The notes under the pieces were generated by a model. The model had not been told where the DNA came from. It ran no database searches and saw nothing but the letters and a program-made list of their open reading frames with translations. The position numbers were made by a program, and so were the translations under genes. Below are positions 16,867 to 64,000 of a stretch of 64,000 bases of DNA, piece after piece; positions within the stretch are counted from its first letter, which is position 1, and every line of letters starts with the position of its first letter. This DNA is from Liolophura sinensis (lineage: Eukaryota; Mollusca; Polyplacophora; Chitonida; Chitonidae). Where the stretch lies: the NCBI RefSeq assembly GCF_032854445.1, contig NC_088302.1:1676001-1740000 (forward strand). Direction: 5' to 3'.

Positions 16867-19800
16867 GTAAGACGACATATCGTCTAAAACTGCGCAGACG
16901 TCGTGTGCTATGGACTTGACGGATTGCGTCACCACGACTGCGCGAGGAGTAAGCTATGTGACATTGACAACTGTGCCAATGTCAAAAATATTTTATAGTG
17001 AAGGTGTTAAATACTCTAAGCGATCAATATTTAAACATACTTTTTCAGAACGCCGATGAAATCTAAGCAGTAGGGTATTAAAATGTCCGAGTACTTGCAA
17101 CCCCAACAATCCTGCCACTGGGCAATGTTCATTGCAGTCACTTTTCTGCCATCAGATAAGCGGCGTCATCATCCAAATTCAAATTTTACATGATGGGATT
17201 GATATTGCATAGCTGATGTAGGCCAACATAGATTTCTTGCCTGTACTAGTTTGATTTGAGTACCGCTTTAACTGTACTAGCAACTGATTCTTTTGAAAAG
17301 GTCATGCATACGTGGACGTTCTTGACATGCTGGACTCATCCTGCTACAGTTAACTCATACTGTTTGGCATGATTTTCAGTGAGTCCCTAAGAAGTGCACA
17401 CATAGTAAATATGTATAATTTTGTTTCAGACTTGATAGGAACTGCATTAATGTTAACTCACCATTAGTTCTTGTTTTTAGCAGATTCATGGATCAAGCAA
17501 GGGAGAGAACCATGCAGTTTGTTTCATTTGTCAGCCACAGACAAGCAGAAGGATTATTACAGTATACTTGGGGTGCCAAAAAATGCAGATACCAAAACCA
17601 TTAAAAAGGCATATTATCAGGTAATCAAGCGTTTATCACACGGCATCACATGTGATTGCAAACCTGGATGCTGTGTATCAGTGAATCATTTTTAAGTACT
17701 GCTAAGACCAACCAAATAAAGAAGTGAAGTTCTGACTAGTGAAAGTTCCATACTTGTTTGAGGATAGAGTGTCTGCCGGAGGCAAGGGCCCAATACCAAG
17801 TTCAGATCTAGTTGTCTCAGCAACAGGCTACTGAGCCTGGTTGTCATTAGCGTGTCATTCCTGGGGGGCAGCAGGGGCTAGACCAATCACTGACTGTTTC
17901 AGTGTCATGTTACTGAAACTGTTTGAGGTGTTGTGCCTGCAGTCATCTGTATGGCATTCCTGTGGTGCAGCCAGGGCTAAACCAATCACTGACCATATCA
18001 CATTGTCGGGTTACTGAGGCCAATTGAGGTGTCATTTCCGGTTTTATCAACGTGGCATTCCTGTTAGTCAGTGGTGGCTAGATCAGTGACTAGTTGTCTC
18101 AAGTGTCGGGATACTGAGGCTGGTTGAGGTGTCATTCCTGGTGTCAGTGACATGGCATTCCTGCTAGACAGCAAGGGCTAGACCAATCACTATTCATCTC
18201 AGTGTTGGGTTATTGAGGTATAATTCATCATTCCAGCATTCCGTCGTCACATAACAATCATGAAAGCGTCGCATTCAACCGCTAAACGTAAGTACATTTT
18301 CCGAGAGTGGTGAAATTCCGCCTTGCTGTGTTATCGTAAGTGTGTGCGCTGACACGTTCTAGGATTTGGAGAGTGGAGATTAAAACAACAAAAAATATAG
18401 CCTCTTTCTTGTTATGCTGACAGCCATTTTTTTCGAAGGTTTGTTTTGATTATGCCTCAGCAGACAATTTGCTTGAATAAATTTATTTATTTATTTGATA
18501 ACATTGATGCTTAACGCCATACCCAAGAAGTTTTATTTAGTACATAGGATGCTGGATACACTGCTGATCGGTGATAGCAATGTATGTGCCTGGCCGAGCA
18601 GGCATGTTGGCAAGGTTGTTTGAGGAAATAGGATGCTGGGTACACTGCTGATCCGCGATAGAAATTTACGTGCCTGGCTGGGCAGGCAAGCCCCGGGCAA
18701 GCGGGCAACCGTTAAGTTACACCGCTGCATTTCTGTGGGAGGGCAGAGCCAATCAGTGGTCTTCTCAGTGTCTGGTTACTGAGGCTGGTTGAGGTGTCAT
18801 TTCTGGTGTCCTCGACATGGCATTTGTGTGGGAAGCGAGGAGCTAGACCAATTACTGTTAGTCTCAAGTGTCTGGTTACTGAGGCTGGTTGAAATGTCAT
18901 TTCTGGTGTCATCAACATGGCGTTCCTGTGGGACAGAAGGGGCTGGAACAATCACTTGTCATCTGAATTTTTTTTTTTTTACTGAATCTGGTTGAGGTGT
19001 CATGTCTGGTGTCAGCAGCATAGCTTTCCTGAGATGCTTCACAGTGATATATCTGCATTGTGATGCACAAGCCTACAACAACGAATTGCTATATGATATA
19101 GGTGTGACATACCATTCCTAGAAAACAATTTCAGTGCTCTGATCCCAAACTATAAAGACGCCATTTAAACTTATGCTTTCTGTGATCTTTAAAATGTGTG
19201 AATGAATGAAATTTGTATGAGAACTAATCTTTTTATTAGTGAACTGTAATATTTGTGTACAGTCTACTTTTTAGTTTTAATACAGCTTGATCAGTATGGG
19301 TGCCCAATAGCTTGGGCCCCCAAATGGGTCTGAAAACAACTTTTACACCATTAACTGTCAAGTGCACTTTCAGGATTTTGTTTTTCTGGTATCTATCAAT
19401 GGGTATTTGCTCCAGGGGAAGTGTGGTTTTTCTCTTCCAAGTGTGTAAAAAAATTTAAATTATATCGCTGTACCAGTATCATTGATTTGCAGTTGGCTAA
19501 GAAGTACCACCCTGATATGAACAAGAATGACCCGGCGGCTGAGAAGAAATTCCAGGAAGTATCAGAAGCCTATGAGGTCAGTGTTTGTCAGTGGAACTAC
19601 AGTCTGTTGTCTCAACATCTCTATCCGGCATGAAGGTTTACATAAACAGTCAAGTCATCAGTTTTATGAAGCCAGTTTAGATGGGTTGAGTTAAAAAAAT
19701 GAATGGTTTTAACTAGCTGATGTTTCTAAGCTGCACAAGTTTTTATCTACTGACATTAAAATGTGTGTCTGAATTTGAGAAGATTTGCATTCCCTAGCAG

Positions 19801-22800
19801 CATTTTCTTGTCTAAACTAAATCATTGCCATGTTTGTTTATCTGATAGACACATTTCAGGAATATCGGAGCAGTGTCAGATGAGGAATTTGTAAATTTGG
19901 TGAAATGTGTGTAACAAAAATCATTTATCCTTTCCACACGGAACAGGTTTTAAGTGACAGTTCCAAGCGACAGCAGTATGACGCATTTGGTGCTGCTGGA
20001 AGCCAGGCAGGCGCAGGCTTCGGTGGTGCATCAGGTTTTGGTGGGGCTAGAGGTGAGTCTCAGACAATGGAAACACTAGGCGGATTTATGCGCTTGTAGA
20101 GAACAACTTTTCCTCAGAGAAGCAAACTCGTGATACATGCCATGTAAATTGCAGGTGATTTTTTCTGTCAGTAGTCAGAGAGTTCTGTCATGTTGTCTAA
20201 GCCATGTAAACTATGTGACACAGACAATGTGGCGCCGTGTTTGGAAATCTTCTGAGATTTACGTGCTCTTTCTATAGCTGCGATCCCCTGAATGCCCAGC
20301 AGCAGACACTACATGACAAAGTAGAATCATCAGTGTATTTTTTGATCTTATCTGACATTCTTGATACAAGCAAATTTCTTTGCCGACAAGATCATCTGCG
20401 AGATATACTGTCTACAGTGCAAACACACTAAGTGTATTTTGGGAAATTCGCAAAATAGCAATTGTAGGAGCGAAAAAGTGCTCCTTGTGTATCCCCTAGA
20501 TAATAGATGATCATTTATTTTTGTGCTCTATGTATTGAAATAGCATTTAGGAGTGGGTTTTTTTCCCCATCATTAACGTAAATATCATACTTGATCTATT
20601 GATTGATTATTTCCATACGATAAGCTGAGCACACACAAACTAGCTGTACGGGATAATTGGAGGAAGTCAAACTTCTATGATGACCATTGTAACATTTAGA
20701 ACTGACTTTTGATCAGTTTGGTTGTAAATCTGCTATGAGAAGTGACAATAAATTGTATGAGCAAGTTGAGCCTCTGCTGGAAGTGTAGTAAGATAAAACC
20801 TGTTATCCCGTAAATCCTGTTTATTTCTTTGCCTTCTTAAAGAAATTTTTGCCTTTTTTGATTTTGAGAAAGGAAACTGCATATTCTGCTATGATCAGAG
20901 GTTGTTTTCTGTTTAAAAATTCAAATTGTTACATATAATTGGGACATAGATTATACCAAACACTCAAGTGTTCAAACAGTGAGTATAGTTTGACTAGTCT
21001 TCTTCCTTTCTGGTAACCATGTTTGCACTGTAGATTCTTCTGCTGACTCTGTGTTTCTTGACAGGGTTTGAAGGTTTCCATAGCACAATAGACCCTGAGG
21101 AACTGTTCAGGAAGATCTTTGGTGATAGAGGCTTCAACATGAGTGGCTTTTCAGAAGACCAGGACTATGCTGAGTCCAAGTTTGGGTTTGCACCAGCTTC
21201 AGAGGTTAGTTTACCTGCTCTGATGTGTTGTGTTCTAGCTCCAGATAGTTCAGTTGCAGAATTGTGACAAGTGTATTATGTGTTCACTAATATCCAATGA
21301 TTGAACTATGAAATTTAATGTACATATTGGTCAGATGATACGCTTGATTGCTCCGGGTCGTTTTCCAGGGATTGCTGGAAGATTTACCAGCTGTGTGCAG
21401 GGGCAGGTGCACTGGCTCTGGACCCATGTTCATTTTTGTTGTTCAACCCACCTGATACGGCGACAGGAAGATTGACCAGCTGTGTGCAGGGGCAGGTGCA
21501 CTGGCTCTGGACCCATGTTCATTTTTGTTGTTCAACCCACCTGATACGGCGACAGGAAGATTGACCAGCTGTGTGCAGGGGCAGGTGCACTGGCTCTGGA
21601 CCCATGTTCATTTTTGTTGTTCAACCCACCTGATACGGCGACAGGAAGATTTACCAGCTGTGTGCAGGGGCAGGTGCACTGGCTCTGGACCCATGTTCAT
21701 TTTTGTTGTTCAACCCACCTGATACGGCGACAGGAAGATTTACCAGCTGTGTGCAGGGGCAGGTGCACTGGCTCTGGACCCATGTTCATTTTTGTTGTTC
21801 AACCCACCTGATACGGCGACAGGAAGATTTACCAGCTGTGTGCAGGGGCAGGTGCACTGGCTCTGGACCCGTGTTCATTTTTGTTGTTCAACCCACCTGA
21901 TACGACGACAGGAAGATTTACCAGCTGTGTGCAGGGGCAGGTGCACTGGCTCTGGACCCATGTTCATTTTTGTTGTTCAACCCACCTGATACGGCGACAG
22001 AGTTAAAAAAAATAACCTTGCTCATTTCTTACATGCAATTTCATTGGTTTCTGTATTTGTTTGACCAGCATTATTATGACAATAGCTTCAACTTTCACAG
22101 TGGGATATCGTTTCCTGCATGTATCCTGCAACTTAATCTCAGTCTTTATTGATTCATTAATGGAAGAAATTGAAAGAAGCAATTCTAGTTTTAGTATCTT
22201 CAGATTGCACACCTCCTCTCTGCCTAGTTCAACTAAATTAAATGCTGAGGCCTATTTTCAACAATTTCCTATGTTTACCTCTATCAACGTTTAATCGTTG
22301 AATTAAAAAATGCAGTAGATCCATTCGCAAGGCACTTTGCAGAAGGAAAATGGCCGTTAAATCCACTTCAAAACAGCGGCATGAAAGAGAATAGGATTTT
22401 TGTTACCACTCCTGCAAGTATAAATTCATTCCCGAGTCAAAATGTTTCCGTCCGTCTGTTCAGAATAACTTTGTGCTGTCATGGCGAGTTGGGTGTACAA
22501 AAAGGTATGAAATATACCTAACAAGACAAGACCACGCCACCATGCAACCAGTCCTGAATGACAACATTAGCGATGATTTTATCAGTCATTATGGATGTAG
22601 AATAGAAAGAACAATTTGCCCAGTCACTCGTGCAAGAAAATAATTGTGAAGTCATGATTATATGCGTATCTGCTTCATTATCTGTGTTTTCCGCCCGTGA
22701 CCTCAGATACAGTCCTGATTCTGGGTGTACCAGATGTGTCGCGCACACTCAAAGCGAGTTTGAAGAGAGAAAAGCCAGCACTTTATCAGACTTTCTGCAT

Positions 22801-25800
22801 ATAACTCGACTGAATGATTTACCTGGATGTTAACATGAATGAGCGATTGGAAGTGTTATTTTCCCTTCAAATGATTGAATTCAACAATTAAATGTTGAGG
22901 CAGGTAAATATCAGAAATTGTTGAAAATAGACCTCAGCGTTTAACTTAGTTAAACTAAGCAGAGAGGAGGTGTGCAATCTGAAGATACTATAACTAGAAT
23001 TGCTTCTTCTTTCCATTTCTTCCATTAATTAATGAATAAAGACTGAGATTAAGTTGCAGCATTCAACTGAACCACACTGTGCCCTACATGCAAAGTGCAG
23101 ACATTCAAACATCAAGCCCCTAAGAAAACAAACACAGTTTATTCTTGACACGTATGCATGCGCTAAAAACATGGTCCCAATAAAGGCATCTAGCAGTTGC
23201 AAATTCATTGTGCGTAGTGGAAAAAATTGGGTGGGACTTTCGTTTTATGAGCACTGGATGTCAAGTTCTTTCTGGGATGTAGTGTATTTCATTTAAATAT
23301 AGAGGATTTGGCCAAGTCCAAAAGAAATTCTTGGAGGAAACAAATCCTAGCAGGATCATATTATCATCACTGTGACAAAAGTTTCTCTCTGTTTCCCTGT
23401 CCATTATGGATGTGGCTGCTGGTAAACTTGTGTGAAGGATTAGTGTCACGTATATCACTAACTGTGTAGACATTGTACATTGCACATCAGTGAAGGTATT
23501 TGTTTTGCCCTGCTCTCTGCATTAATGTTAATTATACGTGTGCGATGAGGTACTTGCTGAGAGCTATGAATTAGTGTGTGGGAGGTCAACATAACATTTA
23601 CTATATGTCTTTACACTTTTTTAAAACTCACCTTTTATATTTATGAATGCAGGTAACATCTATTTACCTCTGTTGTGATTTTGTTTGATTTCTCCAGATT
23701 ATGATGGATTTGACTTTTCAAGAGGCTGCCCGTGGTGTGAACAAGGAGATAAATGTGAATGTGAAAGACATTTGTCCAAAATGTGATGGGAAGAAAGCTG
23801 AGCCTGGGACGAGTAGTGTCAAGTGTCAAACATGTGGTGGTACTGGAATGGTAAGTAGGGTTCTCATCTCTGCCTACTGATCCTGGGACGAGTAGTGTCA
23901 AGTGTCAAGCATGTGGTGGTACTGGAATGGTAAGTAGGGTTCTCATCTCTACCCACTGAGCCCGGGACGAGTAGTGTCAAGTGTCAAGCATGTGGTGGTA
24001 CTGGAATGGTAAGTAGGGTTCTCATCTCTACCTACTGATCCCGGGACGAGTAGTGTCAAGTGTCAAGCATGTGGTGGTACTGGAATGGTAAGTAGGGTTC
24101 TCATCTCTACCCACTGAGCCCGGGACGAGTAGTGTCAAGTGTCAAGCATGTGGTGGTACTGGAATGGTAAGTAGGGTTCTCATCTCTACCTACTGATCCC
24201 GGGACGAGTAGTGTCAAGTGTCAAGCATGTGGTGGTACTGGAATGGTAAGTAGGGTTCTCATCTCTACCCACTGAGCCCGGGACGAGTAGTGTCAAGTGT
24301 CAAGCATGTGGTGGTACTGGAATGGTAAGTAGGGTTCTCATCTCTACCCACTGAGCCCGGGACGAGTAGTGTCAAGTGTCAAGCATGTAGTGGTACTGGA
24401 ATGGTAAGTAGGGTTCTCATCTCTACCCACTGAGCCCGGGACGAGTAGTGTCAAGTGTCAAGCATGTGGTGGTACTGGAATGGTAAGTAGGGTTCTCATC
24501 TCTACCCACTGAGCCCGGGACGAGTAGTGTCAAGTGTCAAGCATGTAGTGGTACTGGAATGGTAAGTAGGGTTCTCATCTCTACCCACTGAGCCCGGGAC
24601 GAAGAACGTCAAACGTTCAGGAATGGTAAATAGTGTCAGATCTCTTGACTCTCATCTCTGCCCATGGTTCACAGCAAGTAAAGTGACATCTCCAGGTCAT
24701 GAAAGCTTTTTTGCGTATTGGTTGTTTCTTATAAACACTCTTTGAAGAAAGTAATTCTTTCATATATCTGTCATAGTCAATTTTCCGGTTATACCATGTC
24801 ATAATATGTGTATGATTTTTTATGTGTAATTGTAATCTTGTAATCCGTATGATGATGTTTGAAAATAAATAAATTGTGTAGAACTGCTAGATGGATGGAG
24901 TTGTATTTCCTCACTCTTATCTCTCTTATGTATGAGAGCAGGATTTGAGGCTCAGGAGCTGTTTGTAACCATACATGTGAACAGTGGGACACCCATAGTG
25001 TACAGTTAGTAACACAAGTTTTCGTTGCTTTTAATATGGATGGTAGATGTGTTTCTGTGCATACCAAAGTTGGTGTTTTTTGGTTTGATTTTCACAGGAA
25101 ACTGTTTCAACTGGTCCGTTTGTGATGAGGACAACGTGTCGACAGTGCAAGGGGGCAAGAGTAATCATCAAAACCCCTTGTACAGAGTGTCAAGGCAAAG
25201 GCAAACTAATCATGCGTAAAAAAGTGGTGGTCCCTGTTCCTGCAGGTAATCAGTGTGGAATCCCTCAGTGTACATGTACGTGATCAGGGAGTCTGCCTGT
25301 CAGTCAGTCAGTCTGTGGAATCCCTCACTGTACATCAGGGAGTCTGCCTGTCAGTCAGTCAGTGTGGAATCCCTGAGTGTGCATGTACATCACGGAGTCT
25401 GCCTTTCAGTCAATCAGTGTGGACTCCCTCAGTGTACATGTACATCACAGAGTTTGCCTGTCAGTCAATCAGTGTGGAATCCCTGAGTGTGCATGTACAT
25501 CACGGAGTCTGCCTCTCAGTCAATCAGTGTGGACTCCCTCAGTGTACATGTACATCACAGAGTTTGCCTGTCAGTCAATCAGTGTGGACTCCCTCATTGT
25601 ACATGTACATCATGTAGTCTGTCTGTCAGTCAATCAGTGTGGACTCCCTCAGTGTACATGTACATCATGTAGTCTGCCTGTCAGTCAATCAGTGTTGACT
25701 CCCTCAGTGTACATGTACATCAGGGAGTCTGTCTGTCAGTCAATCAGTGTGGACTCCGTCAGTGTACATGTACATCAGGGAGTCTGCCTGTCAGTCAGTC

Positions 25801-28800
25801 AGTGTGGACTCCCTCAGTGTATGTGTACATCAGGGAGTCTGCCTGTCAGTCAGTCAGTGTTTTTCAGTTATTGAAATAAGCCCTACATTAACTTTAAGTG
25901 AAATCCACCAGCTGAACTTCCTTTTATCCTCAATTTCTACTGAGTTATGATGCCTTAGCATATACTCTAGTCATTTTTCTGTTTTTTTTTTGTCGAAAGC
26001 TAGTGTCATCTGTGTCCTCAAAACTAGGGGAGTGTAGGACTTCCTATTTTCAATACCCACGAAGATTGACAACTACTATACATGGTCTGCCATTTGAAAT
26101 AAATTGATTTGGTCAAAGGCAAAGAGAGGAAATATTATTGCGTGTTCTTTGAAGATTCTGTATTTCCTATTTGGCAGGAGTTGAAGATGGACAGACAGTG
26201 AGAATGCCAGTGGGAAGACAGGAAATATTTATTACATTTAGGGTAAGTCTCTGTGAATGTGACTGAGTGTGATCTGATAGGATTGAAGTTCTACACAAAT
26301 TTTTTTTTCAGTTAAACTTCAGCACAAGCCTAAAATGTTTCTCCATACATGAATCCAGCTTACAGTATTTTACCACAAGCTATGGATTTATATAGAGACA
26401 AGTTTGTGTGTAAAGTTCTGGTAACGTCAGCAACAGAACCCAAGCTGGAAATAGGAAGATGTAGAATTCGAATCATAAAGTATGAAAACTAAACAGGTGA
26501 ATGGATGTTTGGTGTTTAATGTCATATTGACAGTATTTCAGCTGTATGGAGTCACGTGTGATGTGAAGAGGCACGTGTCATGTAAAGAGGCACGTGTCAT
26601 GTGAAGAGGCACGTGTCATGTGAAGAGGCACGTGTCATGTAAAGAGGCACCTGTCAAATTATAGCAATTTATTATGACAGCTAACAGGGCTTGCTTCATA
26701 CGAATGAATAGTTCCAAAATCAAACAGAAAAATGATGCACACCTTCAAGTCGTATGAAATCAAAAGCAGTATAGATTCAAAAGACCTACAAAATGTGAGG
26801 ACAATAAACATGATAAATAAGGAGACGAGGGTGATGTGAGGGGTGAAAACATCTGATGTCAGAGGTATGATAAATACACAGCTGGTTAGTTGAAGACTGC
26901 GTACAACATTAACACAAGTACAACTGTAGCTCAAATGTAGTACTAGGTGCTATTAGTGGCCTGGTCTTGTATTGGACTCAAGCCACATGTGGGGTCGTAC
27001 ATGTAATTGAACTTTGATTTCTACTGCCTGAAGGTTATTAATTCATGTACCTTGAACTTTTTGGCATTGACTTTTTTGGACTAGAATTTCAAAATGGGGT
27101 TAATTTCGTTAAATTTACTCCCTGAATACCAGTGGGGTCTTAAATTCATACATTTCCTGTTCGTTTTGAGAAAATATAAAAATGTAGTTTGTATTTTGTG
27201 TACACTGATTAAAGTATCTACTGCACATATGCATATGTATGTTCTGTATTTGCAGGTTTCTAAAAGCAATTTTTTTCGGCGGGAAGGTGCTGATGTACAT
27301 AGTGATGTAACCATTAGTCTTTCACAAGCAGTACTCGGGGGAACAACCCGTATCCCGGGCATCTATGATGATATTTTGTTCACAGTAAGTTGCCTAGCAA
27401 TCTGTACAAATAACATGCCAAAGATGATAGATTGGCTGTCATACATGGTTTTATTTACTCTGTCAGTGTTGAATTGTTGAATGATTTGATATACAGGGTA
27501 TCCCAGAAGTTGCGCACCATCCAGGTTGAGGTTGAATGCGTGAGCTACAGAGCGGTGTGTTGCCCCAATCTCTTTCAAACATAAAAACCAATTCAACTCT
27601 GCCTTGTACTGTTAGTTTATTAGCCATAATTAACTCTGAAAGAGAGAAAAAAAATTTAAAATCAGTATGAAATGTGAAACACAGAAAAAAAATGAAAATC
27701 AGGATGGTGGACAACTTCTGGGACACCCTGTATGATTGCTTGAAAATTCTGTGGTCTCTTTAAACTGGGATTACACTAATAGCCTGTGCACAGTGAGGGA
27801 GTGTTTGCGTCCAGTTCTCGTCGGATCTGTTGTCAGTGACATGGGTGAAGTACAGTAGTTTCTTGATGCTCTGTGTTCTGATGGTTAGTGATAACAAGCT
27901 ATCCGTGGATGACCAATGTCACTTTTTGTTTCCATGCATTTTATTTTCTATAGATTCCAGCTGGCACACAATCTCACGACAGACTACGATTGGCTGGGAA
28001 GGGAATTAGCCGTGTAAATAGTTACGGATACGGAGATCACTACGTCCATATAAAAATTCGAATTCCCATGTAAGTTCTGTCGTAACTCGAAGTTACAAAT
28101 TAAATCATGTGTACAAAGAAATGCAGGATACCTGTTGACAGTTTTAAAAATGTATGTATACACATGTTTACTGCTAAAGCTATTTATCTGTGGTATGACA
28201 CTGTTAAAGTTGGAACAGATTGTGAGAGGCTTTCTTCAGCTTATTTTTATAGCTGTAGCTGAGCATTGTTAAGCATAGTGTTGGGAGAGAGGGGACTGTG
28301 TAAGGTTATAAAGCCTTATAGCTGAACATTGTTAAGCATAGTGTTGGGAGAGAGGGGACTGTGTAAGGTTATAAAGCCTTATAGCTGAACATTGTTAAGC
28401 ATAGTGTTGGGAGAGAGGGGACTGTGTAAGGTTATAAAGCCTTGTAGCTGAGCATTGTTAAGCATAGTGTTGGGAGAGAGGGGACTGTGTAAGGTTATAA
28501 AGCCTTGTAGCTGAACATTGTTAAGCATAGTGTTGGGAGAGAGGGGACTGTGTAAGGTTATAATACATGTAGCTGTAGCTGAGCATTGTTAAGCATAGTG
28601 TTGGGAGAGAGGGGACTGTGTAAGGTTATAAAGCCTTGTAGCTGAGCATTGTTAAGCATAGTGTTAGGAGAGAGGGAACTGTGTAAGGTTATAAAGCCTT
28701 GTAGCTGAGCATTGTTAAGCATAGTGTTGGGAGAGAGGGGACTGTGTAAGGTTATAAAGCCTTGTAGCTGAGCATTGTTAAGCATAGTGTTGGGAGAGAG

Positions 28801-31800
28801 GGGGCTGTGTAAGGTTATAAAGCCTTGTAGCTGAGCATTGTTAAGCATAGTGTTGGGAGAGAGGGGACTGTGTAAGGTTATAAAGCCTTGTAGCTGAGCA
28901 TTGTTAAGCATAGTGTTGGGAGAGAGGGGGCTGTGTAAGGTTATAATAGCTGTAGCTGAGCATTGTTAAGCATAGTGTTAGGAGAGAGGGGACTGTGTAA
29001 GGTTATAAAGCCTTGTAGCTGAGCATTGTTAAGCATAGTGTTAGGAGAGAGGGAACTGTGTAAGGTTATAAAGCCTTGTAGCTGAGCATTGTTAAGCATA
29101 GTGTTGGGAGAGAGGGGACTGTGTAAGGTTATAAAGCCTTGTAGCTGAGCATTGTTAAGCATAGTGTTAGGAGAGAGGGGACTGTGTAAGGTTATAAAGC
29201 CTTGTAGCTGAGCATTGTTAAGCATAGTGTTAGGAGAGAGGGGACTGTGTAAGGTTATAAAGCCTTGTAGCTGAGCATTGTTAAGCATAGTGTTAGGAGA
29301 GAGGGAACTGTGTAAGGTTATAAAGCCTTGTAGCTGAGCATTGTTAAGCATAGTGTTGGGAGAGAGGGGACTGTGTAAGGTTATAAAGCCTTGTAGCTGA
29401 GCATTGTTAAGCATAGTGTTGGGAGAGAGGGGACTGTGTAAGGTTATAAAGCCTTGTAGCTGAGCATTGTTAAGCATAGTGTTGGGAGAGAGGGGACTGT
29501 GTAAGGTTATAATACATGTAGCTGTAGCTGAGCATTGTTAAGCATAGTGTTGGGAGAGAGGGGACTGTGTAAGGTTATAAAGCCTTGTAGCTGAGCATTG
29601 TTAAGCATAGTGTTAGGAGAGAGGGAACTGTGTAAGGTTATAAAGCCTTGTAGCTGAGCATTGTTAAGCATAGTGTTGGGAGAGAGGGGACTGTGTAAGG
29701 TTATAAAGCCTTGTAGCTGAGCATTGTTAAGCATAGTGTTGGGAGAGAGGGGGCTGTGTAAGGTTATAAAGCCTTGTAGCTGAGCATTGTTAAGCATAGT
29801 GTTGGGAGAGAGGGGACTGTGTAAGGTTATAAAGCCTTGTAGCTGAGCATTGTTAAGCATAGTGTTGGGAGAGAGGGGGCTGTGTAAGGTTATAATAGCT
29901 GTAGCTGAGCATTGTTAAGCATAGTGTTAGGAGAGAGGGGACTGTGTAAGGTTATAAAGCCTTGTAGCTGAGCATTGTTAAGCATAGTGTTAGGAGAGAG
30001 GGAACTGTGTAAGGTTATAAAGCCTTGTAGCTGAGCATTGTTAAGCATAGTGTTGGGAGAGAGGGGACTGTGTAAGGTTATAAAGCCTTGTAGCTGAGCA
30101 TTGTTAAGCATAGTGTTAGGAGAGAGGGGACTGTGTAAGGTTATAAAGCCTTGTAGCTGAGCATTGTTAAGCATAGTGTTAGGAGAGAGGGGACTGTGTA
30201 AGGTTATAAAGCCTTGTAGCTGAGCATTGTTAAGCATAGTGTTAGGAGAGAGGGAACTGTGTAAGGTTATAAAGCCTTGTAGCTGAGCATTGTTAAGCAT
30301 AGTGTTGGGAGAGAGGGGACTGTGTAAGGTTATAAAGCCTTGTAGCTGAGCATTGTTAAGCATAGTGTTGGGAGAGAGGGGACTGTGTAAGGTTATAAAG
30401 CCTTGTAGCTGAGCATTGTTAAGCATAGTGTTGGGAGAGAGGGGACTGTGTAAGGTTATAAAGCCTTGTAGCTGAGCATTGTTAAGCATAGTGTTGGGAG
30501 AGAGGGGACTGTGTAAGGTTATAATAGCTGTAGCTGAGCATTGTTAAGCATAGTGTTGGGAGAGAGGGGACTGTGTAAGGTTATAAAGCCTTGTAGCTGA
30601 GCATTGTTAAGCATAGTGTTGGGAGAGAGGGGACTGTGTAAGGTTATAAAGCCTTGTAGCTGAGCATTGTTAAGCATAGTGTTAGGAGAGAGGGGACTGT
30701 GTAAGGTTATAAAGCCTTGTAGCTGAGCATTGTTAAGCATAGTGTTAGGAGAGAGGGGACTGTGTAAGGTTATAAAGCCTTGTAGCTGAGCATTGTTAAG
30801 CATAGTGTTAGGAGAGAGGGGACTGTGTAAGGTTATAAAGCCTTGTAGCTGAGCATTGTTAAGCATAGTGTTAGGAGAGAGGGGACTGTGTAAGGTTATA
30901 AAGCCTTGTAGCTGAGCATTGTTAAGCATAGTGTTGGGAGAGAGGGGACTGTGGTAAGGTTATAATAGCTGTAGCTGAGCATTGTTAAGCATAGTGTTAG
31001 GAGAGAGGGGACTGTGTAAGGTTATAAAGCCTTGTAGCTGAGCATTGTTAAGCATAGTGTTGGGAGAGAGGGGACTGTGTAAGGTTATAAAGCCTTGTAG
31101 CTGAGCATTGTTAAGCATAGTGTTGGGAGAGAGGGAACTGTGTAAGGTTATAAAGCCTTGTAGCTGAGCATTGTTAAGCATAGTGTTGGGAGAGAGGGGA
31201 CTGTGTAAGGTTATAATAGCTGTAGCTGAGCATTGTTAAGCATAGTGTTGGGAGAGAGGGGACTGTGTAAGGTTATAATAGCTGTAGCTGAGCATTGTTA
31301 AGCATAGTGTTGGGAGAGAGGGGACTGTAAGGTTATAATAGCTGTAGCTGAGCATTGTTAAGCATAGTGTTGGGAGAGAGGGGACTGTGTAAGGTTATAA
31401 AGCCTTGTAGCTGAGCATTGTTAAGCATAGTGTTGGGAGAGAGGGGACTGTGTAAGGTTATAATAGCTGTAGCTGAGCATTGTTAAGCATAGTGTTGGGA
31501 GAGAGGGAACTGTGTAAGGTTATAAAGCCTTGTAGCTGAGCATTGTTAAGCATAGTGTTGGGAGAGAGGGGACTGTGTAAGGTTATAAAGCCTTGTAGCT
31601 GAACATTGTTAAGCATAGTGTTGGGAGAGAGGGGACTGTGTAAGGTTATAAAGCCTTGTAGCTGAGCATTGTTAAGCATAGTGTTGGGAGAGAGGGGACT
31701 GTGTAAGGTTATAAAGCCTTGTAGCTGAGCATTGTTAAGCATAGTGTTGGGAGAGAGGGGACTGTGTAAGGTTATAATAGCTGTAGCTGAGCATTGTTAA

Positions 31801-34800
31801 GCATAGTGTTGGGAGAGAGGGGACTGTGTAAGGTTATAAAGCCTTGTAGCTGAGCATTGTTAAGCATAGTGTTAGGAGAGAGGGGACTGTGTAAGGTTAT
31901 AATAGCTGTAGCTGAGCATTGTTAAGCATGGTGTTGGGAGAGAGGGGACTGTGTAAGGTTATAAAGCCTTGTAGCTGAGCATTGTTAAGCATAGTGTTGG
32001 GAGAGAGGGGACTGTGTAAGGTTATAATAGCTGTAACTGAGCATTGTTAAGCATAGTGTTAGGAGAGAGGGGACTGTGTAAGGTTATAAAGCCTTGTAGC
32101 TGAGCATTGTTAAGCATAGTGTTAGGAGAGAGGGGACTGTGTAAGGTTATAATAGTTGTAGCTGAGCATTGTTAAGCATGGTGTTGGGAGAGAGGGGACT
32201 GTGTAAGGTTATAAAGCCTTGTAGCTGAGCATTGTTAAGCATAGTGTTGGGAGAGAGGGGACTGTGTAAGGTTATAATAGCTGTAGCTGAGCATTGTTAA
32301 GCATAGTGTTAGGAGAGAGGGGACTGTGTAAGGTTATAAAGCCTTGTAGCTGAGCATTGTTAAGCATAGTGTTAGGAGAGAGGGGACTGTGTAAGGTTAT
32401 AAAGCCTTGTAGCTGAGCATTGTTAAGCATAGTGTTGGGAGAGAGGGGACTGTGTAAGGTTATAAAGCCTTGTAGCTGAGCATTGTTAAGCATAGTGTTA
32501 GGAGAGAGGGGACTGTGTAAGGTTATAAAGCCTTGTAGCTGAGCATTGTTAAGCATAGTGTTGGGAGAGAGGGAACTTTGTATTTTATAAAGCCTTGTAG
32601 CTGAGCATTGTTAAGCATAGTGTTAGGAGAGAGGGGACTGTGTAAGGTTATAATAGCTGTAGCTGAGCATTGTTAAGCATAGTGTTAGGAGAGAGGGGAC
32701 TGTGTAAGGTTATAAAGCCTTGTAGCTGAGCATTGTTAAGCATAGTGTTGGGAGAGAGGGGACTGTGTAAGGTTATAATAGCTGTAGCTGAGCATTGTTA
32801 AGCATAGTGTTAGGAGAGAGGGGACTGTGTAAGGTTATAAAGCCTTGTAGCTGAGCATTGTTAAGCATAGTGTTAGGAGAGAGGGAACTTTGTATTTTAT
32901 AAAGCCTTGTAGCTGAGCATTGTTAAGCATAGTGTTGGGAGAGAGGGGACTGTGTAAGGTTATAATAGCTGTAGCTGAGCATTGTTAAGCATAGTGTTAG
33001 GAGAGAGGGGACTGTGTAAGGTTATAAAGCCTTGTAGCTGAGCATTGTTAAGCATAGTGTTGGGAGAGAGGGGACTGTGTAAGGTTATAATAGCTGTAGC
33101 TGAACATTGTTAAGCATAGTGTTGGGAGAGAGGGAACTGTGTAAGGTTATAAAGCCTCTAATGGACTCAGCTGATTAGCTACTGACCATTGAGGCTGTGG
33201 ACTTCACACCAACATCTGGCAGATTTGGCTGCATTTTTAAGTAATGAGTTTGTCAGGTATCAGGCTTTCCAGCTGTAAAACTGACAACCATTGTGTATTA
33301 AGTAAAACATTCTATAGTAAGACATCACACCCGAGTATAGTCATGGAGAAAAACAGACCACACATTTATGGCATTCTGTCGTATAATTCAGGATTCTTGC
33401 CCATTGATGTCCTGTCTCAGTGTTTAGAATATGCGGTGTTTGTATTGTCTTGTTCAGTATGAAGGCTAGACCAGGTAGACGCACTGGTTTGTCTGCACTC
33501 ACTATGTTTTACCTGGTTGACTACAGGTGTCATGTGTGACACTGTTGATGTTGTCTTAGCAAACACCCCACTGAAACTCCCATGGGCTATCATGATGAGA
33601 ATGGCCTCAAGACCTCATGTATAGTCTTACAATTGTGACACGTGTAATATTGTCTTACAGACTTAACCCTTTTGATATTGTTCCGCTGTGGTATAAGTGA
33701 AATATTCTTAAGTGTGGTGTAAAACACCAGTCAAATAAATAATTGAATTGATGTTGTTTTTTCAAATGTGGTCCATTTAGTGCCATAATATCCATGGGTT
33801 TTGACCTTTATTAGACCTTGACCCATTTCATTCTGCATGCACCATTCAGATTGTTCAGGTATTTCTGATATTATCGTCTTTCTGCATGTGCACGCAATTA
33901 TGTGAGTGCAACATTATCCTTCTGTGTGACAGGAAGTTGACCCCCCAGCAGAAAGCTTTGATCCTGTCCTATGCTGAGTTGGAAACAGATGTCAACGGGA
34001 CTGTCAGTGGGATAACGAAAACAAAAGATGGTGAGTAGAAGACAGCCAGGTCTTAATTAAACCATAGAATTTAAATGTACCAGTGAATTAGAGAAGATTG
34101 TCATCCAAGTTGTTTTTATTGGTTGTCCAAAAAAATCTCACTTGTATCAATTCTTTAATTGATATTAAGGCTATAAACTAGTGGTTACCAAGAGGCTCAT
34201 GGAAGTTGGTGGTGTGGATAAAAAAAGGTTGCGCATAGAGTTGAAAATTATGACTGTAAATAGAGTCAAGGGAAATAACTGTCACCCTAACCTTTTCTGT
34301 GCATATGGCTGTGTAGTAAGCAGCAAGTGTCGCAGCATAGCCTCGCTATAAGGCGCTTTGATACAGCGCTTAATCGGATATGACATGATCCAAATCTTGT
34401 TCCCCAAAAATCTGCGGTGTGTGTTCCTGTGAGGCCTAGATTTCTAATGACAACAACTAAAACTGCAAACCAATTTTTCACCAAGAAATATACATGAATA
34501 ATGCGACATGGTTTGCTTCATTTCCTGCTGTTTGTGTGTCACCCAGGTGTTATTTGATATTTTAGGTTGAATCCTTTGAATATCGCGCGAGAAAAGGATT
34601 TTTCTATGACTAATAGGTTAGGTTGTGTCTGGTTACATTTCCTTGCGATTCCAAACGCACGAGTAACGTTGCTGTCGCATTACTTCCACGTGGGGGTGGG
34701 GCTTCCTCAGCAATACAGAACACATTTTGCTCACTCTGACAGGCTTACCTCATAAAGGGATTAATATCTGTACACTTTCAGTCAGTGAAGAAAACTTAAG

Positions 34801-59934: not shown

Positions 59935-62900
59935 AATGTACAGGATGATTGTATGTTAAATCAATGAGCCCTCGGCATACAGGAATGCACAGGGTGACTC
60001 AGGTTAGCGCAGTGGGGCCGTGACATTACTGAACGTACAGGATGATTGTATATTAAATCAATGAGCCCTCGGCATACAGGAATGCACAGGATGACTCTGT
60101 GTTAGCGCAGTGGGGCCGTGACATTACTGAACGTACAGGATGATTGTATGATAAATCAATAACCCCTCGGCATACAGGAATGCACAGGATGATTGTATGT
60201 TAGCTCAGTGAGGCCTGGACCTTAATGTACAGGACGATTGCATGTTAGCTCACCGAGGCCGGGACCTGCCTGAATGTACAAGACGATTGTATGTTAGCTC
60301 ACCGAGGCCTGGATCTGCCTGAATGTTCAGGACGATTGCATGTTAGCTCACTGAGGCCTGGACCTTACTGAAGGTACAGGATAATTGCATGTTAGCTCAT
60401 CGAGGCCTGGACCTTACTGAATGTACAGGATAATTGCATGTGAGCTCACTAAGGCCTTGACCTGCCTGAATGTACAGGACAATTGTATGTTAGCTCACCG
60501 AGGCCTGGACCTTACTGAATGTACAGGATGAGTGTATATTAGCTCACTAAGGCCTGGACCTGCCTGAATGTACAGGACGATTGTATGTGAGCTCACTAAG
60601 GCCTTGACCTGCCTGAATGTACAGGACAATTGTATGTTAGCTCACCGAGGCCTGGACCTTACTGAATGTACAGGATGAGTGTATATTAGCTCACTAAGGC
60701 CTGGACCTGCCTGAATGTACAGGATGATTGTATGTTAGCTCACCGAGGCCTGGACCTGCCTGAATGTTCAGGACAATTGCATGTTAGCTCACCGAGGCCT
60801 GGACCTTACTGAATGTACAGGATGAGTGTATGTTAGCTCACTGAGGCCTGGACCTTACTGAATGTACAGGATGATTGTATGTTAGCTCACCGAAGCCTGG
60901 ACCTTACTGAATGCACAGGATGATTGTATGTTGGCTCACTGAGCCCTCAGCATATCAGAATGTACAGGATGATTGTATGTTACCTCACTAAAGCCTGGAC
61001 CTGCCTGAATGTTCAGGACGATTGCATGTTAGCTCACCGAGGCCTGGACCTTACTGAATGCACAGGATGATTGTACGTTAGCTCACCGAGGCCTGGACCT
61101 TACTGAATGTACAGGATGATTGTACGTTAGCTCACTGAGCCCTCAGCATATCAGAATGTACAGGATGATTGTATGTTACCTCACTAAAGCCTGGACCTGC
61201 CTGAATGTTCAGGACGATTCCATGTAGCTCACTGAGGCCTGGACCTTACTGAATGTACAGGATGATTGTATGTTAGCTCACTGAGCCCTCAGCATATCAG
61301 AATGTACAGGATGATTGTATGTTAGCTCACTAAAGCCTGGACCTGCCTGAATGTACAGGACGATTGTATGTTAGCTCACCGAAGTCTGGACCTGCCTGAA
61401 TGTTCAGGACGATTGCATGTTAGCTCACTAAGGCCTGGACCTTACTGAATGCACAGGATGATTGTACGTTAGCTCACCGAGGCATGGACCTTACTGAATG
61501 CACAGGATGATTGTATGTTAGCTCACTGAAACCTGGACCTTACTGAATGCACAGGATGATTGTATGTTAGCTCACTGAAACCTGGACCTTACTGAATGAA
61601 CAGGACGATTGTATGTTAGCTCACTAAAGCCTGGACCTGCCTGAATGTACAGGACGATTGTATGTTAGCTCACCGAAGTCTGGACCTGCCTGAATGTTCA
61701 GGACGATTGCATGTTAGCTCACTGAGGCCTGGACCTTACTGAATGTACAGGATGATTGTACGTTAGCTCACCGAGGCCTGGATCTGCCTGAATGTTCAGG
61801 ACGATTGCATGTTAGCTCACTGAGGCCTGGACCTTACTGAAGGTACAGGATAATTGCATGTTAGCTCATCGAGGCCTGGACCTTACTGAATGTACAGGAT
61901 AATTGCATGTGAGCTCACTAAGGCCTTGACCTGCCTGAATGTACAGGACAATTGTATGTTAGCTCACCGAGGCCTGGACCTTACTGAATGTACAGGATGA
62001 GTGTATATTAGCTCACTAAGGCCTGGACCTGCCTGAATGTACAGGACGATTGTATGTGAGCTCACTAAGGCCTTGACCTGCCTGAATGTACAGGACAATT
62101 GTATGTTAGCTCACCGAGGCCTGGACCTTACTGAATGTACAGGATGAGTGTATATTAGCTCACTAAGGCCTGGACCTGCCTGAATGTACAGGATGATTGT
62201 ATGTTAGCTCACCGAGGCCTGGACCTGCCTGAATGTTCAGGACAATTGCATGTTAGCTCACCGAGGCCTGGACCTTACTGAATGTACAGGATGAGTGTAT
62301 GTTAGCTCACTGAGGCCTGGACCTTACTGAATGTACAGGATGATTGTATGTTAGCTCACCGAAGCCTGGACCTTACTGAATGCACAGGATGATTGTATGT
62401 TGGCTCACTGAGCCCTCAGCATATCAGAATGTACAGGATGATTGTATGTTACCTCACTAAAGCCTGGACCTGCCTGAATGTTCAGGACGATTGCATGTTA
62501 GCTCACCGAGGCCTGGACCTTACTGAATGCACAGGATGATTGTACGTTAGCTCACCGAGGCCTGGATCTTACTGAATGTACAGGATGATTGTACGTTAGC
62601 TCACTGAGCCCTCAGCATATCAGAATGTACAGGATGATTGTATGTTACCTCACTAAAGCCTGGACCTGCCTGAATGTTCAGGACGATTGCATGTTAGCTC
62701 ACTGAGGCCTGGACCTTACTGAATGTACAGGATGATTGTATGTTAGCTCACTGAGCCCTCAGCATATCAGAATGTACAGGATGATTGTATGTTAGCTCAC
62801 TAAAGCCTGGACCTGCCTGAATGTACAGGACGATTGTATGTTAGCTCACCGAAGTCTGGACCTGCCTGAATGTTCAGGACGATTGCATGTTAGCTCACCG

Positions 62901-64000
62901 AGGCCTGGACCTTACTGAATGCACAGGATGATTGTACGTTAGCTCACCGAGGCATGGACCTTACTGAATGCACAGGATGATTGTATGTTAGCTCACTGAA
63001 ACCTGGACCTTACTGAATGCACAGGATGATTGTATGTTAGCTCACTGAAACCTGGACCTTACTGAATGAACAGGACGATTGTATGTTAGCTCACTAAAGC
63101 CTGGACCTGCCTGAATGTACAGGACGATTGTATGTTAGCTCACCGAAGTCTGGACCTGCCTGAATGTTCAGGACGATTGCATGTTAGCTCACTGAGGCCT
63201 GGACCTTACTGAATGTACAGGATGATTGTACGTTAGCTCACCGAGGCCTGGACCTTACTGAATGCACAGGATGATTGTATGATAGCTCACTGAGGCCTGG
63301 ACATTACTGAATGCACAGGACGATTGTATATTAGCTCACTGAGGCCTGGACCTTACTGAATGTACAGGATGATTGCATGTTAGCTCACTGAAGTCTGGAC
63401 CTTACTGAATGTACAGGATGATTGTATGTTAGCTCACTGAGCCCTCAGCATATCAGAATGTACAGGATGATTGTATGTTAGCTCACTAAAGCCTGGACCT
63501 GCCTGAATGTACAGGACGATTGTATGTTAGCTCACCGAAGTCTGGACCTGCCTGAATGCACAGGATGATTGTACGTTAGCTCACCGAGGCATGGACCTTA
63601 CTGAATGCACAGGATGATTGTATGTTAGCTCACTGAAACCTGGACCTTACTGAATGCACAGGATGATTGTATGTTAGCTCACTGAAACCTGGACCTTACT
63701 GAATGAACAGGATGATTGTATGTTAGCTCACTAAAGCCTGGACCTGCCTGAATGTACAGGACGATTGTATGTTAGCTCACCGAAGTCTGGACCTGCCTGA
63801 ATGTTCAGGACGATTGCATGTTAGCTCACGGAGGCCTGGACCTTACTGAATGTACAGGATGATTGTACGTTAGCTCACCGAGGCCTGGACCTTACTGAAT
63901 GCACAGGATGATTGTATGATAGCTCACTGAGGCCTGGACATTACTGAATGCACAGGATGATTGTATGTTAGCTCACTGAGGCCTGGACCTTACTGAATGT
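59935..64000. repeat. 49-bp minisatellite reaching the right edge, with ~1470-bp higher-order repeat
   Basis: More than 80 units of 'gaatgtacaggatgattgta', 'tgttagctcactgaggcctg' and 'gaccttact', with several subtypes ('gacctgcctgaatgttcagg', 'gagccctcagcatatcagaa'). Rare subtype markers recur at fixed distance: 'aaggtacaggataattgc' at 60371 and 61840, and 'gaatgaacaggacgattg' at about 61593 and 63064. A block of about 30 units (~1470 bp) was therefore duplicated. The array continues past the window. Confidence 0.97.

Follow-up and report, generated by a model that had tools for sequence, protein, structure and literature searches.

How does a cell keep choosing one splice donor when it is followed by identical donors at regular spacing? 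Artificial minigenes are the usual setting in which identical 5' splice sites are made to compete, and a natural case is presented by the DNAJA3 gene of the chiton Liolophura sinensis, where a 79-bp tandem repeat straddles an exon/intron boundary with its first copy on the boundary itself. We analysed this gene in a window of 64,000 nucleotides (contig NC_088302.1 of assembly GCF_032854445.1, forward-strand positions 1,676,001 to 1,740,000; G000:C8:1676001-1740000 in our genome searches, which covered 609,464,459 bases in 632 contigs); positions below refer to this window, and all DNAJA3 features lie on its forward strand. We consider it highly probable that the array is a recently amplified, mostly neutral minisatellite of the kind termed mirage in amphioxus, which would be tolerated since splicing takes the exon-proximal donor.

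The gene had been assigned to DNAJA3 in a preliminary description made from the sequence, and indeed its best relative of solved structure is DNAJA3 (2ctt). The exon pair flanking the array matches this structure with an E value of 3.5e-31, compared to 1e-14 for the next-best DnaJ, and the exon peptides match the Pfam families DnaJ, DnaJ_CXXCXGXG and DnaJ_C. The exon carrying the start of the array (153 nt, 23698-23850, ending ATG|gtaagt) was delimited by acceptor and donor scores, by translation and by homology to DnaJ and the DNAJA3 zinc finger. When its first donor is spliced to 25098, the resulting protein aligns to DNAJA3 (2ctt) without a gap; the next exon (25098-25245, ETVSTGPF...), which was recognised by its scores, its translation and its DNAJA3 match, thus joins copy 1 in the conserved protein. 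The designation of the array-bearing exon as exon 6 follows the numbering of the preliminary description, while the coding exons that we located upstream, excluding the first exon, are four (at about 17535-17620, 19493-19576, 19947-20052 and 21065-21204, the second of them with a rival start at 19442).

The repeated unit comprises the last 53 nt of the exon and the first 26 nt of the intron. Tandem Repeats Finder (TRF) called the array at 23798-24602 with a period of 79, 10.2 copies and 97% matches, and in agreement with this, alignment in register gave ten full copies (23798-24587), which start at 23798 + 79n with no indel between units. Copy 1 (23798-23876) consists of the genuine 53 nt of exon and 26 nt of intron, while copies 2-10 (23877-24587) are intronic, and a search of the genome with a query that spliced the exon end to the following exon found the exon plus at least nine further copies, all at the DNAJA3 locus. 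Since exact 79-bp repeats carry the coding sequence of a conserved domain, they are not a chance result. The ten tandem copies with intact donors that had been proposed before were therefore confirmed, and a degenerate eleventh copy with indels, which the preliminary description had left unmentioned and which was detected by alignment and donor score, directly follows the ten full ones (24588 to about 24668); it contains a weaker donor, gtaaat at 24626, and two exon-like bases.

The ten gtaagt donors are located at 23851, 23930 and so on up to 24562. They are identical across nine bases and all score 10.48 in a weight matrix, in line with the equal strength previously judged by eye, compared to 7.16 for the donor of the eleventh copy. 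Translation showed that donors 2-10 all lead to one TGA in frame with the exon (23878-23880), so that full-length protein results only from the first donor, as the preliminary description had stated. Because the protein is made only via the first of ten identical splice sites, cells must keep picking this site. We infer that the first donor would be used nearly always and that the downstream donors would represent tolerated decoys. Each unit could in principle also be an alternative exon, cassette or mutually exclusive, of the type that occurs in arrays, because it combines 53 nt of coding-like sequence with a strong donor. Such exons need an acceptor in every unit, and no acceptor scoring above 0 was found for exon starts from 23852 to 24000, i.e. 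over more than one unit, which makes cassette use unlikely. In addition, the exonic part of 53 nt is not a multiple of 3, and near-identical units would bring no protein diversity; we therefore consider this explanation extremely unlikely.

The differences between the copies bear on the history of the array. Compared with the consensus of the nine intronic copies, the exon copy shows 4 differences over 79 positions, among them caaAcatgt in the exon copy, which reads caaGcatgt in all nine intronic copies, whereas each intronic copy differs from this consensus at only 0-2 positions. Two sites (CAAACATG/CAAGCATG and CTCTGCC/CTCTACC) set both edges of the array apart from its interior: the exon copy and the degenerate end copy have A and G there, respectively, and all nine interior copies G and A. 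At the first of these sites, the agreement of the edges requires indels in the alignment. The pattern suggests derived bases in the interior that were distributed by homogenisation, with the exon edge and the old 3' edge left out of it. Since both edges keep bases lost from the interior, the earlier proposal that the copies have been homogenised among themselves and not with the exon gains further support. Adjacent intronic copies differ on average at 1.6 positions, while copies two, three and four units apart differ at 0.57, 1.67 and 1.4 positions, respectively. As copies two units apart are most alike, part of the array probably grew in two-unit (158-bp) steps.

Based on these data, we propose the following course of events. 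A 79-bp tandem duplication across the 5' splice site would have been followed by amplification, partly by two-unit steps as the copy differences suggest, and by homogenisation of the interior, which would have left both edges behind. Splicing would commit the exon to the first, exon-proximal donor, leaving the nine extra donors as nearly silent decoys, and it is this commitment that would allow the array to survive. The likely means are exon definition across the 153-nt exon, co-transcriptional commitment before the later donors are transcribed, or both. The near neutrality of the array, the route of its amplification and the actual use of its donors are all points that we infer.

Tandem arrays across exon/intron boundaries have been described in amphioxus under the name mirages. 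One report covers the globin genes BflGb6 and BflGb9 and cites Adh3 (PMC3087553), and another names TnC and PGBD5 as well (PMC3902484). Like the globin mirages, the DNAJA3 array is a tandem duplication at a boundary in which many copies keep intact splice signals, here gtaagt in 10 of 10 full copies, and in which concerted evolution affects the interior with the edges of the cluster excluded; both donor and acceptor sides are affected, in our case across the genome survey described below (PMC3087553). The Adh3 data cited there and globin reverse transcription PCR (RT-PCR) suggest a like use of splice sites in amphioxus, with regular splicing despite the mirages (PMC3087553). The lancelet PGBD5 gene likewise has tandem repeats at splice sites, of 60 and 108 bp, for which the authors expect accurate splicing; they describe these repeats as imperfect, whereas the DNAJA3 array is longer and 97% uniform (PMC3902484). 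The array also resembles intron gain by duplication of an AG/GT proto-splice site (Rogers, as discussed in PMC3087553), in that a duplication across a splice site adds splice signals, but the DNAJA3 intron already exists and keeps its boundary. The amphioxus mirages further differ in host and gene, the present case being a chiton DNAJA3 gene with ten identical donors, and they are backed by RT-PCR, haplotype and somatic-instability data, whereas the chiton array is known from sequence. The reported mirages range within cephalochordates, and the chiton array thus falls outside that range. We recognised no mirage outside amphioxus in the open-licence literature searched, which leaves most subscription papers uncovered, so that we make no claim of priority. 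Taken together, the DNAJA3 array is an ordinary member of an unusual but known class, the mirage minisatellites; new in comparison to amphioxus are the organism, the number and uniformity of the donors, and a measured frequency.

This frequency was obtained from a survey of exons elsewhere in the genome. Genome searches yielded 138 matches for Pkinase, 20 for AAA and 76 for Helicase_C, from which 118 exon regions were hand-picked (40 kinase, 14 AAA and 64 helicase regions), nearly all of them with open frames of at most 150 amino acids. The kinase regions include every match ranked below the top 30 whose open frame measures at most 150 amino acids (38), plus two longer ones; the AAA regions represent 15 of the 20 matches and the helicase regions 64 of the 76, one helicase open frame of 149 amino acids with four stops being among those excluded. 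The sample was not purged of regions whose match contains stop codons, and exon ends were set with the donor and acceptor weight matrices. Mirages at donors were found in 8 of the 118 regions (95% interval 3-13%; L048, L055, L099, L100, L104, L126, L135 and L156) and at acceptors in 2 of the 118 (L040 and L041), which together amounts to 10 of 118 (4-15%), in a sample of kinase, AAA and helicase exons that may be unrepresentative of all genes. Among the top 30 kinase loci, which mostly have long open frames and lie outside the 118 regions, no array of at least 2.5 copies was found over the match. L100 carries 22 copies of 39 bp; L156 has two copies of 98 bp (49 exonic, 96% alike) and is probably a nascent mirage. 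The exonic part at L055 comprises only 5 nt according to TRF and about 18 nt by eye. L099 and L126 are the least certain cases, because L099 has two equal-scoring ends and the end of L126 was chosen by hand; for the donor-decay tests below, the array start of L126 was fixed at 18 nt before the chosen exon end. The preliminary description, which had been right in its anatomy, its donors and the homogenisation of the copies, had missed both the kinship with the amphioxus mirages and this genome-wide recurrence (10/118).

The recurrence also bears on the quality of the assembly. With a published HiFi coverage of only 14x (PMC11068029), the array could be an artefact, or could have been collapsed or expanded during assembly. 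However, the HiFi reads average 8,347 bp according to the same report (PMC11068029), compared to about 0.8 kb for the array, single-base differences tell several copies apart, and the pattern recurs at unrelated loci, which together make an artefact very unlikely, although the exact copy number, which comes from one purged haploid assembly, may differ between haplotypes.

If the downstream donors are decoys, the question arises whether they are harmful, neutral or kept. In each of the nine donor mirages (the eight from the survey and DNAJA3), the score of the genuine donor is reached by one or more sites further down the array, and no open in-frame product was found for in-register downstream donors (score above 3, at most 4 nt off register) in any of the nine. 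Of 96 downstream copies in 8 arrays (L156 excluded), 85 have kept their GT, and the donor hexamers of the 8 arrays show 40 mismatches where circular shifting predicts 58 (P=0.10 for a count this low or lower); treating columns as independent, the Mantel-Haenszel odds ratio for donor-hexamer mismatch is 0.61 (p=0.003). A first run on shorter arrays gave 11 of 146 mutated at GT and 218 of 2911 elsewhere (p=1.0), with p=0.07 for the hexamer. Overall, no faster decay of downstream donors relative to the rest of the unit was seen in these arrays, i.e. there is no sign of overall selection against decoys and at most a hint of conservation.

The lack of an overall decay would also fit a regulated poison array, in which splicing would turn to downstream donors at an appreciable rate and the TGA-bearing transcripts would tune the dosage of DNAJA3 by nonsense-mediated decay, all the more so as the downstream full-copy donors match the first one in strength and all reach the same TGA. 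However, the array appears recent and homogenised, given the 0-2 differences per copy, and the occurrence of a like pattern in unrelated kinase and helicase exons indicates a genome-wide mutational habit, and we thus regard such a dosage control as quite improbable.

At L055, the genuine donor is weaker than each of the five downstream copies: AAG|gtatgc scores 8.2, compared to 11.0 for four of the copies (AAG|gtaagc) and 8.8 for the fifth (ACG|gtaagc). This locus (G000:C10:22583726-22584735) is a sharper test of position versus strength than DNAJA3.

Whether arrays prefer exon ends was assessed against a null of uniform array positions, with L156 excluded. On the donor side there are 20 arrays with 2.5 copies or more, of which seven overlap the boundary compared to 2.0 expected (P=0.002), whereas the acceptor-side arrays do so in 2 of 16 cases compared to 1.6 expected (P=0.47). 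The outcome is sensitive to the choice of period and the inclusion of cases: with the longest repeat period per array, the donor-side expectation is 2.4 (P=0.006), and when L099 and L126 are additionally left uncounted, 5 stand against 2.4 (P=0.08). A preference of arrays for exon boundaries, at donors only, is therefore suggestive. It is conceivable, if on balance improbable, that the birth or retention of minisatellites is biased to 5' splice sites, that a sizeable share of exons (8/118 regions) carries equally strong competing donors, and that a strict first-donor rule applies; if so, the genome would represent a natural, replicated test of 5' splice-site competition. The donor-side excess, its lack at acceptors and a lower mutation level in the donor hexamer than elsewhere in the unit at L099 and L100 could also mean that the extra donors help, with a cluster of U1 sites strengthening exon recognition or shielding the intron from premature cleavage, and that arrays are kept at donors for this reason. 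Yet the excess drops in the strictest count, pooled conservation has P=0.10 under the circular-shift control, L048 shows the opposite trend, and acceptor mirages exist too, so that a benefit of this kind seems unlikely. As a separate observation, 11 of the 19 donor-side arrays in the first 100 survey regions begin within the exon or at most 40 nt past its end.

Several points weigh against a mostly neutral array that is spliced at its first donor. At L048, mutations are denser in the donor hexamer than elsewhere in the unit (10/42 vs 47/407, p=0.047), as expected were decoys harmful there. The hexamers of L099 and L100 are less mutated (p=0.0003 and 0.02), a possible hint that these copies are kept and not neutral, although values as low occur in 9% and 15% of the 6-base windows in the two units. 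Copies four units apart in the DNAJA3 array are less alike than copies two apart, and simple dimer growth therefore does not cover the whole array. The predicted use of the first donor draws on the conservation of the protein and on the amphioxus precedent. Finally, in classical work, competing 5' splice sites are often resolved to the intron-proximal site at high U1 occupancy, whereas the DNAJA3 array calls for the reverse outcome. A trace of past donor use was also sought: among the matches listed for the spliced-exon query described above, there was no spliced retrocopy that would record it.

The genome-wide pattern of boundary arrays is more interesting than the single DNAJA3 array. Conserved genes contain natural arrays with as many as about twenty near-identical donors, of which only the first can yield the protein, and if RNA confirms the use of the first donor, they would show how far position overrides donor strength. 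These arrays would also extend mirages from lancelets to molluscs and suggest that mirages are a general consequence of minisatellite-rich genomes, and they could feed intron gain and transcript errors.

Other tandem arrays lie close by. The donor of the exon at 25098-25245 is directly followed by another array (25246-25860), which TRF called at 25248-25860 with 11.2 copies of 55 bp, starting at the third base of the next intron. A derivation of this array from the end of that exon is unsupported, as 127 of 500 shuffled exon ends reach the score of the real one. Further arrays include a 63-bp unit in 78 copies at 28254-33157, which is intronic and located between DNAJA3 exons, and 83 copies of 49 bp at 59935-64000, reaching the end of the window. 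In total, tandem arrays with a period of at least 15 and at least 2.5 copies make up 38% of the window (24,591 bases), compared to 7.9% (8,341 of 105,278 bases) in the first 100 loci of the survey. Two additional observations concern other contigs. On contig G000:C99, about seven copies of the mitochondrial genome, which repeats with a period of 15,537 bp, are strung together into one concatemer, and a stretch of TA-rich repeats is present. At L081 (G000:C1:39401194-39402525), two AAA exons that closely resemble each other (GVLMVGPPGTGKT... and GVMMVGPPGTGKT...), which we take to be katanin-like, start 261 bp apart on one strand and are possibly mutually exclusive.
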